Source: Pseudobutyrivibrio ruminis AD2017
Lineage (GTDB): Bacteria > Bacillota > Clostridia > Lachnospirales > Lachnospiraceae
DNA: 64,000 bases
Reading direction: 5' to 3'
NCBI RefSeq assembly: GCF_000424305.1
Contig: NZ_AUJQ01000006.1
Location: 1 to 64,000 of the forward strand
Below, one piece after another: positions 55,299 to 59,018 of this stretch (its first letter is position 1; the number at the start of each line of letters is the position of its first letter). The notes under the pieces are model-generated. The model was not told where the DNA came from, made no database searches, and saw only the letters and a list, made by a program, of their open reading frames with translations. Made by a program: the position numbers and the translations under genes.

Positions 55299-55331
55299 AG
55301 GCACTATGTAGGTAACATAGTGCCTTTTTTT
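55299..55331. terminator. Terminator of the fatty acid operon
   Basis: AGGCACTATGT (55299-55309) pairs perfectly with ACATAGTGCCT (55315-55325), followed by eight T. Confidence 0.85.
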
Positions 55332-56554
55332 TATATTTCTTCCCCGTTAAGCATGAATGTTTCGTCAGGTTCGATTGGTACGCATACGCACTTCTTACCA
55401 TCTACGTAAGCTGTAGTAACATTAGCTGCCTTGCTTTCAGATACTTTTACAACAATGTCAGGTATCTTGCCATCGGCTGTTTCTCCTGTGGCTTCTTTAA
55501 GCTGCTTTGTAAGGTCTACAACACGTTCCTTAAGAACATTTTTCTCAACTCTTATTTCATTATTCTTAAGAGCCTTCTCATCTAAGATTTCCTCAGCAAG
55601 TGGGAGCTGCTCTTCAAAATAGTTTTCGAAATTAGCCTGAATCTTTTCAACCTTCATATCTGAAAGTCCAGAATCAGTAAGGATATTTGCAACATCCTGT
55701 GGTTCAAGAATGATTGGCTCTTCAGGTCCTAAACGCTCGGCCTCAACAGTAATGAAATCTGAAAGGTTCTGCTGAATATCAAGCTTTGTCTCAAGAGTTT
55801 CCTCTGTTTCCTCGCCAAGCGCCTGGTTCAGCATGTTGTTGAAGGCATTCTTCTTCTGAGTAGTGGTCTTTCTAGTGCCGCAGCCAATGCAGTTTTCCCA
55901 GAATTCTACATGAGGCTCCTTAGTGTTCTTAGTGTATGCCAGGCATGCATGTAAATCAGTAGAACGCTCTGTAAATGCAGGAAATGTAAAGGCTGTATCA
56001 ACAGGTCCTACAACCCAGTCTCTGTCTCTAGCGCCAATACGGTTTTCCTGCTCGCGATAACCAAGGGCAGCCTTTGAAAGCTGAACAGGGCAGATAGCGC
56101 AGATGATGTATTCGTATACTTCCTCTGATTCATCTAAGGCTAAGTTATCGCTGGTCTTCATAGGAACATCATATGTATCGTGGAAAAGCACGATAAGATA
56201 GTTTCCTACATAATCATAAGATTCAATAATGCGATTGTAATATTCAATAAGAAGCTTCTCATCCTTAAGACCTGTCTCGCGAAGTCTCATTAACAAATCA
56301 TGACCGCTGCCTTCGATTTCTGATTCAGGATCAAATGGAAGCTCCAGCAAGTTGTTGCCAATAGTTCCAGACATGGCCTTGTTAGCAATCTCAAGATATT
56401 TGTGGAATTCCTCATCCTCAAGATTAAGGAAAGTCTCCTTGAATGTGAGCACGATTTCCTTGTTGGCATCAACGTAGCAGCCAACCATCTTGTCGAAGTT
56501 AACGGAATCCTTTTTGAAGCGTCTTTTTATTTCATTTACTTCTTTTTTATTCAT
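55331..56554 (-). CDS. DUF4317 protein
   Basis: The 407-residue protein starts MNKKEVNEIKRRFKKD and has a GCYVDANKEIVLTFKETFLNL segment, two conserved Cys in the central ENCIGCG and an acidic, helical C-terminal half (about 260-350). This pattern is the DUF4317 family, common in Lachnospiraceae and of unknown function. No signal peptide or membrane span is seen. AGGGGTGA precedes the start on the minus strand. Confidence 0.85.
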   Translation of the reverse strand: MNKKEVNEIKRRFKKDSVNFDKMVGCYVDANKEIVLTFKETFLNLEDEEFHKYLEIANKAMSGTIGNNLLELPFDPESEIEGSGHDLLMRLRETGLKDEKLLIEYYNRIIESYDYVGNYLIVLFHDTYDVPMKTSDNLALDESEEVYEYIICAICPVQLSKAALGYREQENRIGARDRDWVVGPVDTAFTFPAFTERSTDLHACLAYTKNTKEPHVEFWENCIGCGTRKTTTQKKNAFNNMLNQALGEETEETLETKLDIQQNLSDFITVEAERLGPEEPIILEPQDVANILTDSGLSDMKVEKIQANFENYFEEQLPLAEEILDEKALKNNEIRVEKNVLKERVVDLTKQLKEATGETADGKIPDIVVKVSESKAANVTTAYVDGKKCVCVPIEPDETFMLNGEEI

Positions 56555-56637: not shown

Positions 56638-56938
56638 TTAAGTGTATATACCATAATAGATTTTTCACTTAAAATTGCAAAATGCTGTTAAGTGAATCTA
56701 GAAAAAAATTTTAAAAACTTAACAGAGTTAAGTGTGAAATAGCAAAAAATCATTTTCACTTATATAAATCTGAGGAGTCGGGAGAATTTGTTAAGTGAAG
56801 AAATGAAAATCTCCAAATAAACTTAAGAATACCTAAAATTATTTAATCTAACTTAAGTTTATTTTGAAAAATTTTTCTCACACTTAACCTCATTTCCGAT
56901 TTTTAAGTGAGAATATGAGAATGCAGAAAAAACTTAAC
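56638..56938. promoter_or_regulatory. Array of TTAAGTG/CACTTAA boxes
   Basis: In about 300 bp of gene-free AT-rich DNA there are roughly twelve boxes. TTAAGTG occurs at 56638, 56688, 56728, 56791 and 56903. CACTTAA or its near form occurs at 56666, 56757 and 56881. ACTTAAC or ACTTAAG occurs at 56717, 56821, 56851 and 56932. Several form local inverted pairs, for example ACTTAAC/GTTAAGT at 56717-56733 and CACTTAA/TTAAGTG at 56881-56909. The array ends just before the asnS promoter. An operator array is the simplest reading. Confidence 0.6.
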
Positions 56939-56954
56939 TATTGACATGAAAAGC

Positions 56955-56983
56955 TTGACATTAAAATCGTAAATAACTATACT
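56955..56983 (+). promoter_or_regulatory. asnS: Promoter of the asnS-asnA operon
   Basis: A perfect TTGACA (56955-56960) and TATACT (56978-56983) are 17 bp apart. A second TTGACA lies at 56941. The transcript would start near 56990 and read into the leader peptide. Confidence 0.75.
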
Positions 56984-57011
56984 TTACTCAAATAAAGAAA
57001 AGGAGACAATC

Positions 57012-57086
57012 ATGGCATTCACATCTATGCTTAATAATCTCAATAACAATAATAATAATTCCGTGAATAATAATCAGGGGATTTAA
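57012..57086 (+). CDS. Asparagine-rich leader peptide of asnS-asnA
   Basis: The 24-codon frame encodes MAFTSML-NN-L-NNNNNN-SV-NNN-QGI, with 11 Asn codons in 14 consecutive positions. It has AGGAG (57001-57005) six bases before the ATG. It lies just downstream of the promoter and is followed by an antiterminator/terminator pair before asnS. A codon run for the amino acid made and charged by the operon is the mark of a ribosome-mediated attenuator: scarce charged tRNA-Asn would stall the ribosome here. Confidence 0.8.
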   Translation: MAFTSMLNNLNNNNNNSVNNNQGI

Positions 57087-57088
57087 TT

Positions 57089-57174
57089 TTATTGCGTTGA
57101 TGAGATTTGATGGTTGTTTCAAATAAGTAAGAATTAGAGAGCCTCATCAAGTACTGCTTGGTGGGGCTTTTTTT
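57089..57174 (+). promoter_or_regulatory. asnS: Attenuator of asnS-asnA (antiterminator and terminator)
   Basis: The terminator pairs AGCCTCATCAAG (57140-57151) with CTTGGTGGGGCT (57157-57168), with two wobble pairs, followed by seven T. TTGATGAG (57097-57104) is perfectly complementary to CTCATCAA (57143-57150) in the left arm of the terminator and so can act as antiterminator. TTATTG (57089-57094) can in turn pair with CAATAA inside the Asn codons (57041-57046), which could hold the antiterminator when the leader is translated freely. No T-box motif is present. Confidence 0.75.
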
Positions 57175-57195
57175 ATGAATGAAAAGGAGAAAATT

Positions 57196-58596
57196 ATGAG
57201 CGTTAAAACAACAGACATAAGAACTCTTTCTAGAAACTTCAAGGAATACGGTGACAAGGAAGTTACAGTTTCTGGTTGGGTTCGCAACATGCGTGATTCA
57301 AAGACATTTGGATTCTTAGTACTTGCAGATGGTACTTTCTTTAACCCAGTGCAGGTAGTTTTCAACCAGGATAAGATTGATAACTTCGATGAAGTTCGTC
57401 ATTTAAATGTAGGTGCAGCAGTATATGTAACAGGTACTGTAGTACTTACACCAGAGGCTAAGCAGCCATTTGAAATCCAGGCTACAAAGGTTGTAGTTGA
57501 AGGAAAGTCTACACCAGATTATCCAATCCAGCCAAAGAGACACACAATGGAATACCTTCGTACACAGACACATCTTCGTGCACGTACAAACACATTCCAG
57601 GCTGTATTTAGAGTGCGTTCTCTTTGTGCATACGCTATTCACAAGTTCTTCCAGGAGCGTGATTTCGTATATGTACACACTCCACTTATCACAGGAAGTG
57701 ACTGCGAGGGTGCAGGTGAGATGTTCCAGGTTACAACAATGGACCTTAACAACATCCCTAAGACAGAGGATGGCAAGGTTGATTTCTCACAGGATTTCTT
57801 CGGACATGCTACAAACCTTACAGTATCAGGTCAGTTAAACGGTGAGACATACGCACAGGCCTTCAAGAATATTTACACATTCGGTCCTACATTCCGTGCA
57901 GAGAACTCTAACACAACTCGTCATGCAGCAGAGTTCTGGATGATTGAGCCAGAGATTTCTTTCGCTGATCTTGAGGATGATATGGAACTTGCTGAAGACA
58001 TGATTAAGTTCGTTATCAACTACGTTCTTGAGCATGCTCCAGAGGAGATGGAATTCTTCAACAACTTCATCGACAAGGGACTTCTTGATAGATTACATCA
58101 CGTTGCTACTTCTGATTTCGGACGTATCACATACACAGATGCTGTTGCAGAGCTTGAGAAGCACAACGATGAATTTGATTACAAGGTATCTTGGGGCTGT
58201 GATCTTCAGACAGAGCACGAAAGATACTTAACAGAAAAGATTTTTGGAAAGCCTGTATTCGTAACAGATTATCCAAAGGAAATCAAGGCTTTCTATATGA
58301 AGCTCAACGATGACGGCAAGACAGTAGCTGCTATGGACTGCCTCGTTCCTGGTATAGGAGAAATCATCGGTGGTTCACAGCGTGAGGACGACTACGATGT
58401 ACTTCTTAAGAGAATGCAGGAATGCGGCCTCAAGGAAGAGGACTACCAGTTCTACCTTGACCTTCGTAAATACGGTAGCTCTCGTCATGCAGGCTTCGGA
58501 CTCGGCTTCGAGCGCTGCGTAATGTACCTCACAGGAATGGGCAACATCCGTGACGTAATCCCATTCCCACGTACCGTAGGTAACTGCGATTTGTAA
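57196..58596 (+). CDS. asnS: Asparaginyl-tRNA synthetase
   Basis: The 466-residue class II synthetase has an N-terminal OB-fold anticodon domain ([24 protein letters not shown]) and a catalytic core. Motif 2 is visible as [21 protein letters not shown], and motif 3 as [27 protein letters not shown]. It charges tRNA-Asn. The start at 57196 follows AAAAGGAGA; an in-frame ATG at 57175 lies on the T run of the terminator and is rejected. The stop codon lies in the arm of a hairpin (58595-58630). Confidence 0.95.
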
Positions 58597-58630
58597 TCAA
58601 ATTCGCACATGAACATGTGTGAATTTGATT
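58595..58630. repeat. Stop-codon hairpin at the end of asnS
   Basis: AATCAAATTCGCACATG (58595-58611) pairs with CATGTGTGAATTTGATT (58614-58630) with a single mismatch. A second nested hairpin follows, AGAACTGCC/GGCAGTTCT at about 58635-58676, enclosing ATTGCC/GGCAAT. No T run follows either one. Confidence 0.7.
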
Positions 58631-58688
58631 GCCCAGAACTGCCCATTGCCGTAGGCAATCTTCAATGGCAGTTCTTCCACTAAAGTCC

Positions 58689-58844
58689 GTAATCATTTCG
58701 CTGACCCATACATATCTTTCTAAGACACGCTTTCGCTCATGTCGTGCTCGTTGCCCTACATAAGGTGCTGCTAAAGCACCACCTAAGTAGGGACGGCACT
58801 TTAAGGTCTTTAGAAAGACATGTATGTCTCAACTCAATGATTAC
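58689..58844 (-). repeat. Palindromic element, TTARRTGA/GGACTTAG type (copy 5, minus orientation)
   Basis: The outer arms are GTAATCATT (58689-58697) and AATGATTAC (58836-58844). Nested arms are ATCTTTCTAAGAC/GTCTTTAGAAAGA and CCCTAC/GTAGGG with GTGCT/AGCAC. On the minus strand the boundaries read TTAAGTGA and GGACTTTAG, matching the plus-oriented copies, and the interior holds GAGCGAAAGCG as in copies 2 and 3. Because it is inverted, its end cannot serve as a ribosome binding site for asnA. Confidence 0.7.
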
Positions 58845-58860
58845 TCACTTAATAACCCAA

Positions 58861-58997
58861 GGCGACATCACAGCCTAGGCAAGCGCGAGCAAGAGGGCCC
58901 CATGACTTGCAACAGAGGGGACCCACGCCGGCGGGGAGTTTCTGTTGCAAGTCAATGGGAGATGGCTTGCGGGAGCATGAAACACTAGAATGTCGCC
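58861..58997 (+). repeat. Palindromic element, GC-rich type (copy 2)
   Basis: The outer arms are GGCGACAT (58861-58868) and ATGTCGCC (58990-58997). The inner arms TGACTTGCAACAGA (58903-58916) and TCTGTTGCAAGTCA (58941-58954) pair perfectly. The conserved blocks shared with 27708-27889 are at 58871-58891, 58922-58935 and 58968-58977. AAGCGCGAGCAAGAGG (58881-58896) is also identical to the loop of the element at 27905. ATTTAGGAGG follows and supplies the ribosome binding site of asnA. Confidence 0.75.
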
Positions 58998-59018
58998 GAC
59001 ACGATTTAGGAGGAGAAT

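Follow-up and report, generated by a model that had tools for sequence, protein, structure and literature searches.

A probable asparagine-responsive leader-peptide attenuator ahead of asnS in Pseudobutyrivibrio and its relatives before other genes in Lachnospiraceae

In the trp, his and leu attenuators of Proteobacteria, a leader peptide rich in the cognate amino acid is combined with an RNA whose arm 1 lies within the regulatory codons, with mutually exclusive 1:2, 2:3 and 3:4 pairings, and with a terminator that ends in a U run. The usual sensor of uncharged tRNA for synthetase genes in Firmicutes is the T-box (RF00230). For histidine, attenuation in Proteobacteria has been summarised in a study which also predicts His-leader attenuators with runs of three to five His codons in the Bacillus cereus group, Peptostreptococcaceae and Erysipelotrichales (PMC9413887). 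As in the case presented here, these predictions combine a codon run with attenuator, antiterminator and terminator hairpins recognized by comparison; they differ from our case in belonging to histidine operons and to families other than Lachnospiraceae. Judged by this source, leader-peptide attenuation in Firmicutes is already known in kind, which corrects a first-pass annotation of the DNA studied here that had set such attenuation in Proteobacteria against the T-boxes usual in Firmicutes. Attenuators that respond to drugs—ermK, bmrB-bmrCD, vmlR and a lincomycin-responsive one in Listeria—are treated in a review, which also reports that Term-seq found such regulation to be common in Gram-positive bacteria (PMC5418344); there, stalling in a leader ORF favours the antiterminator, as we propose below for asnS. 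A paper on leaders in Actinobacteria does not contain the word asparagine in its main text (PMC1262725). Neither an asnS leader nor an attenuator family of the kind reported below was found described in open-access PMC text, and the wider family is apparently undescribed.

The leader in question precedes asnS in Pseudobutyrivibrio ruminis AD2017, in what we call the window, i.e. the whole stretch of 64,000 nucleotides that was analysed. From its sequence we consider it likely to be a ribosome-mediated transcription attenuator of the trp/his type that senses the charging of Asn-tRNA. With the proteobacterial trp, his and leu systems it shares the residue-rich peptide, an arm 1 located in the codons, the exclusive pairings and the U-run terminator; it differs from them in its amino acid (Asn), its target (asnS) and its host family, and further in that the ORF contains an additional conserved hairpin and that attenuators of genes unrelated to amino acids are homologous to it. 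The locus comprises the following features.

55331–56554, minus strand: DUF4317 gene
56955–56983, plus strand: promoter TTGACA-17-TATACT, 11 of 12 consensus matches
57001–57005, plus strand: Shine–Dalgarno sequence of the leader peptide, AGGAG, read in the sequence; GGAG or GGGG in relatives
57012–57086, plus strand: leader ORF MAFTSMLNNLNNNNNNSVNNNQGI, followed by a stop codon; 24 codons, 11 of them Asn
57033–57059, plus strand: Asn run, codons 8–16 with one Leu, the proposed stall codons; longest run 4–9 in 23 asnS leaders
57036–57047, plus strand: arm 1, the anti-antiterminator AATCTCAATAAC, from the MFE fold; 11 of 12 positions pair with arm 2
57057–57083, plus strand: core hairpin AATTCC-G-TG(AATAATAAT)CA-G-GGGATT with a G.G mismatch; changes on both sides in 4 of 8 pairs across 18 diverse leaders
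57096–57107, plus strand: arm 2, GTTGATGAGATT; partner of either arm 1 or arm 3
57140–57151, plus strand: arm 3, AGCCTCATCAAG, the left arm of the terminator; partner of either arm 2 or arm 4
57157–57174, plus strand: arm 4 and the terminator U run; stem 57157–57168, seven T at 57168–57174
57196–58596, plus strand: asnS, asparagine-tRNA ligase; above the cut-offs of NCBIfam TIGR00457 and NF003037
59019–60029, plus strand: asnA, aspartate-ammonia ligase; above the cut-off of NCBIfam TIGR00669

The good promoter, the AGGAG-led frame with its 11 Asn codons, and the 8-nt antiterminator with a 12-bp terminator stem and seven T had all been listed by the first-pass annotation and are found as described; the list was incomplete in that arm 1, which sequesters the antiterminator, and the core hairpin had been missed and are added here. 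As TTGAC[AT]-N17-TATACT, the promoter recurs 53–57 bases ahead of the leader ATG in 23 asnS loci out of 24, and the remaining one is truncated by a contig end; promoter-like sites in the region occur without excess (6 against 5.6 in shuffles). Translation of asnS probably starts at ATG 57196 (AAGGAG at 57184–57189), 21 bases past the first in-frame ATG at 57175. That asnS and asnA form one operon had been taken for granted: the identity of both genes is borne out by NCBIfam, and their co-transcription is plausible from the layout, the gap in the window measuring 422 bases (58597–59018) and holding three inverted repeats with arms of 41, 19 and 17 nt. In 21 of the 22 genus loci inspected, a sequence motif places asnA downstream of asnS, the distance being 22–422 bases overall and just 22–26 bases in four relatives. 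Upstream of the asnS promoter, towards the DUF4317 gene, TTAAGTG occurs seven times (both strands counted) within 272 bases (56638–56909), which looks like an operator or a repeat cluster; the full window holds 25 copies against 12.3 expected. At the very start of the window, within positions 1–262, three consecutive tRNA genes (Val, Leu, Arg) are found.

Within the leader RNA, TTGATGAG (57097–57104) is the exact complement of CTCATCAA (57143–57150), which itself lies in the left arm of the 12-bp terminator stem (57140–57151/57157–57168). Three pairings compete, i.e. arm 1 with arm 2, arm 2 with arm 3 (57143–57150) and arm 3 with arm 4, and antiterminator (2:3) and terminator (3:4) are mutually exclusive since they share arm 3; both are kept. 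The core hairpin (57057–57062/57078–57083), with a symmetric G.G mismatch and the last three Asn codons in its loop, is placed between arms 1 and 2. The leader folds at -57.3 kcal/mol (z -6.3; none of 200 shuffles as good), much of this energy being supplied by the terminator, a stem that a simple terminator scan of the window did not report.

With these parts, attenuation would proceed as follows. Transcription would start near 56990, as judged from the promoter, and the leader peptide would be translated by a ribosome. A shortage of Asn-tRNA(Asn) would make this ribosome stall at codons 8–16, where it would cover arm 1; arm 2, left free, would then pair with arm 3 and so prevent the 3:4 terminator from forming, and RNA polymerase would reach asnS and perhaps asnA. 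With ample Asn-tRNA the ribosome would pass, either arm 1 or the ribosome itself would occupy arm 2, 3:4 would form and transcription would stop in the U run. The stop codon is reached ahead of arm 2 in all but two of the 24 asnS leaders, L025 and L026, whose ORF continues through arm 2, so release geometry differs among asnS leaders; a ribosome stalled early would free arm 2 in both layouts.

How well do the pairings hold up in other leaders? In a set of 18 diverse leaders (A4), core and terminator together are paired in 93.6% of cells (31–55% in slid controls), with nine pairs changed on both sides, and the terminator alone reaches 99.1%, with double-sided changes in 5 of its 12 pairs. In the same leaders, core and antiterminator are formed in 86.3% of cells (30–52% when slid). 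Their doubly changed pairs number five, a count matched by 76 of 500 shuffles; and a single one of the nine pairs that make up the 2:3 helix (89–163) is doubly changed, A-U replacing G-C in three of the 18 leaders (L267–L269), so that this pairing is supported mainly by conservation. For the 1:2 pairing, 31 chosen distinct leaders were compared with permuted partners: the mean cognate duplex has -24.2 kcal/mol against -17.9 for permuted ones, with none of 20000 permutations as good (-23.7 against -15.2 in an earlier run with 24 leaders). The own partner ranks first in 7 and among the top three in 14 of the 31, and as low as 25th in L299 and 19th in L316. In the window leader taken alone, its rank is only 10th of 31, and the duplex is matched by 85 of 2000 sequences with bases shuffled and by 239 of 2000 with codon order shuffled. 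Sequestration of arm 2 by arm 1 is thus strong across the family and modest for the window leader alone.

An ordinary terminator that happens to follow a chance small ORF, with constant read-through into asnS, is one alternative. The U run is indeed weak in some asnS terminators, such as that of L010 (TTAACTTA), and in several relatives, the range among 24 asnS leaders being 4–7 T in the 8 bases past the stem, and in some strains extra structured sequence separates the terminator from asnS. Both the arms and the coding run show conservation and covariation, which makes this explanation extremely improbable. The intervening stretches, structured and repeat-like, are those of L012, L013, L014 and L015.

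A search for AsnS over 61 genomes gave asnS 5' regions from 26 genomes of the genus (L001–L026) and fragments in G023, i.e. the asnS 5' end was recovered in 27 of the 29 genomes sampled, which named matches assign to Pseudobutyrivibrio; G020 and G026, which are 83% and 81% complete, have no asnS match. The leader stands ahead of asnS in 25 of the 27: in 24 of L001–L026, with 23 complete and L005 cut by a contig end, and in G023, whose leader peptide is the same as that of the window. In G010 and G024 leader and core are absent and asnS follows an apparent other coding stretch. Aligning asnS upstream regions, as the first-pass annotation had proposed, shows frame, Asn run, antiterminator and terminator retained in 24 loci read fully and one cut by a contig end, and this comparison lends good support to the idea of ribosome-mediated attenuation by an Asn leader. 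Outside the genus, four asnS loci (L027–L030) lack the core. Among 80 named asnS loci, a scan for short ORFs found such a leader in seven only (L034–L040), all labelled Pseudobutyrivibrio, and none in L071, which bears the same label yet is only 82% identical; the named match at 100% AsnS identity is Pseudobutyrivibrio sp. OR37.

Is the Asn tract maintained as codons or as RNA? asnS leaders vary through exchanges of AAT and AAC and through whole-codon changes in the length of the Asn tract, and of the nine variable sites within codons 1–18 of 14 typical leaders (10 distinct), six are third positions. The three core Asn codons, by contrast, are AAT in 54 of 54 cases in 18 unique leaders, the other Asn codons being 112 AAT to 32 AAC (Fisher p 1.7e-5, a guide only, as the leaders are related). 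The tract is therefore kept as codons and the core also as RNA. Such conservation of the core beyond coding needs—CC, G and CAGGG are also nearly invariant across genes—could speak for a riboswitch-like element that binds a ligand or a protein, with an ORF of little importance. We regard this as very unlikely, since the leader retains its start codon and ribosome site and varies codon by codon, the loop codons are replaced in relatives (GAT ATG AAG; TAT TAT TAC ATT), and no Rfam family matches the window leader or 11 relatives ahead of other genes at gathering score; Phe_leader (RF01859) gives 19.2 bits against a threshold of 55.

Neither the window nor 24 further genus asnS loci (20 plus L019, L020, L022 and L024) contain a T-box at gathering score, as the first-pass annotation had maintained for this leader. 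The AD2017 genome as such is not devoid of T-boxes: one match lies over the cut-off and two below, and the downstream genes read by eye are trpD, thrS and valS. In other Lachnospiraceae and Clostridia a T-box over gathering score lies upstream of asnS at L056, L066, L072 and L081, which had been preselected from the 80 asnS loci by a crude motif scan; the one locus Rfam-scanned among the other 76, L070, has none. Thus the asnS sensor seems, from these sequences, to have been exchanged within Lachnospiraceae/Clostridia.

The core hairpin also led beyond asnS. Three genus genomes carry a second copy before a gene for a GNAT–methyltransferase fusion, intact in two and reduced to the GNAT part in the third. 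A covariance model (R1) that included these leaders and three more read upstream of the same gene also found, ahead of a stand-alone methyltransferase gene, a class whose core has Asp-Met-Lys (GAT ATG AAG) in place of the three Asn codons. A second model, R2, matched 10 of 299 Lachnospiraceae genomes, and a third, R3, matched 13 of 397 genomes of the family in 12 of 334 genera, one of them Pseudobutyrivibrio; over 391 genomes of the class, R3 gave six matches, all in Lachnospiraceae. At the R3 loci L330–L333 the leader is followed first by a whole or partial methyltransferase gene and then by a GNAT gene. In one other genus (g231), 27 of 41 genomes match at E ≤0.01; 46 of 49 rows were examined here, and leader starts were picked by a script and may be wrong in some cases (e.g. 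L281, L297). A V or M, followed after two to five residues by QG, is found in 45 of 53 unique leaders of other genes, and many of their ORFs continue through arm 2. Scanning 46 downstream proteins gave 26 GNAT (Acetyltransf_1), 13 methyltransferase (Methyltransf_11) and 4 phosphorylase (PNP_UDP_1) assignments, with fusions counted in two classes and the first ORF past the match taken as the downstream protein; it starts within 130 bases in 39 of 46 cases and is doubtful in the others.

By sequence comparison, the asnS device is homologous to this wider family of Lachnospiraceae attenuators before acetyltransferase and methyltransferase genes. The isolated Asn device suggested by the first-pass annotation thus gives way to an architecture that mostly precedes GNAT and methyltransferase genes and does so without an Asn run. 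Loci that lack the run and keep the terminator, which that annotation had named as counter-evidence, exist at these other genes; at asnS there are none. The asnS version was found in one genus, as against 12 genera in the family sample (one being Pseudobutyrivibrio) for the other versions, and this distribution suggests that asnS adopted an existing scaffold, one that elsewhere would answer to something other than Asn.

Several further observations and candidates belong to this search. Upstream of a GNAT–methyltransferase gene, L155 retains a promoter-like site and a terminator-like stem, its leader ORF is down to a few codons and the core is missing, which looks like a natural broken attenuator. 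The GNAT–methyltransferase leaders L156, L157 and L159 have another core hairpin (GGTTC/GATTC stem) without NNNQG and keep the arm 1–arm 2 pairing. A Thr-rich leader (MIRFILTTTETVTTTSVNTVQG...) at L312 precedes a protein with no Pfam match that is nucleotidyltransferase-like by eye; a search among solved structures returned none for this protein, and general methyltransferases for that of L287. Set aside as chance were a family-wide core match at L144, which is antisense within a coding gene, and, by eye, the weak R1 matches L247–L252 (chance or ordinary stem-loops); a loose core pattern hit 375 places in 29 genomes against 274 in a reversed control and is mostly background. NCBIfam and Pfam hold no family for four leader peptides. 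Plasmids yielded no match to the leader peptide of a relative and only short low-scoring ones to that of the window, phages only short low-scoring matches to the leader of a relative, and viral contigs (IMG/VR) lack the exact core.

The relatives raise the question whether the leader might be a general sensor of slowed translation, be it by ribosome-targeting drugs or by a shortage of any aminoacyl-tRNA, with the Asn run incidental or a modest bias. The homologous leaders of GNAT, methyltransferase and phosphorylase-like genes retain core, arms and terminator in the absence of a long Asn run, and leaders of other genes are already Asn-rich, with Asn making up 13.7% of residues. The length of the run, however, separates the two groups: the longest run is 4–9 in 23 asnS leaders and 1–3 in 56 leaders of other genes (omitting, of the g231 rows, L302, L303 and L322–L325 as weak or doubtful and L275 as occupying the same place as L264, and the cut L005, with the leaders of G023 and L330–L333 read separately), and a run of at least five is found in 10 of 11 unique peptides at asnS and in none of 53 at other genes. 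The one gene with the long run is the one whose product charges tRNA-Asn. This contrast is the best argument that the run would serve asnS and renders a general sensor an unlikely explanation. As the asnS leaders are one lineage, the long run represents one event, not 23, and the Asn-rich composition of the other leaders would have eased the change.

What, then, do the relatives respond to? They resemble antibiotic-responsive attenuators in preceding enzyme classes that are able to modify drugs, a likeness of gene class; the proteins of five relatives fall below every NCBIfam family cut-off shown or have no match, the leaders scanned match no Rfam family at gathering score, and to call these proteins drug-inactivating is a guess from their enzyme class. 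A leader ORF with an attenuator before a resistance gene is also the arrangement of tet(M), tet(O), tet(S) and tet(W). Kinship of the tet(M)/tet(W) type was considered and dismissed: the leaders MRQGILK and MLCIPMVMHKNPSDKSIYHWDFYALLGF, read directly, share no core by eye and are unrelated.

Overall, the asnS leader seems to belong, in retuned form, to a family whose other members are found ahead of drug-inactivation-like enzymes. It is quite possible, and we put this forward tentatively, that it is a domesticated member of a widespread Lachnospiraceae attenuator family—with the leader motif PV...QG, the core hairpin and the arms GATGAG/GATAAGG—whose other members would be induced by drug-stalled ribosomes and control enzymes inactivating small molecules, i.e. 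GNAT acetyltransferases, SAM methyltransferases, nucleoside-phosphorylase-like and kinase-like proteins. In a single genus this device would have been moved before asnS, a gene that a T-box can serve in other Lachnospiraceae, and a longer Asn run would have sufficed to retune it to amino-acid starvation.

If this is true, the two classical uses of ribosome-mediated attenuation would be linked within one lineage. The Asn run itself points to an Asn-specific leader-peptide attenuator in a group in which asnS of some members uses a T-box, and the covariance models recover a family of related attenuators along with it. Furthermore, should these relatives respond to drugs that block translation, the family would single out a set of uncharacterised acetyltransferases, methyltransferases and phosphorylases of rumen and gut bacteria as candidate inducible resistance genes, and one and the same attenuator scaffold could switch between sensing a drug and sensing an amino acid.
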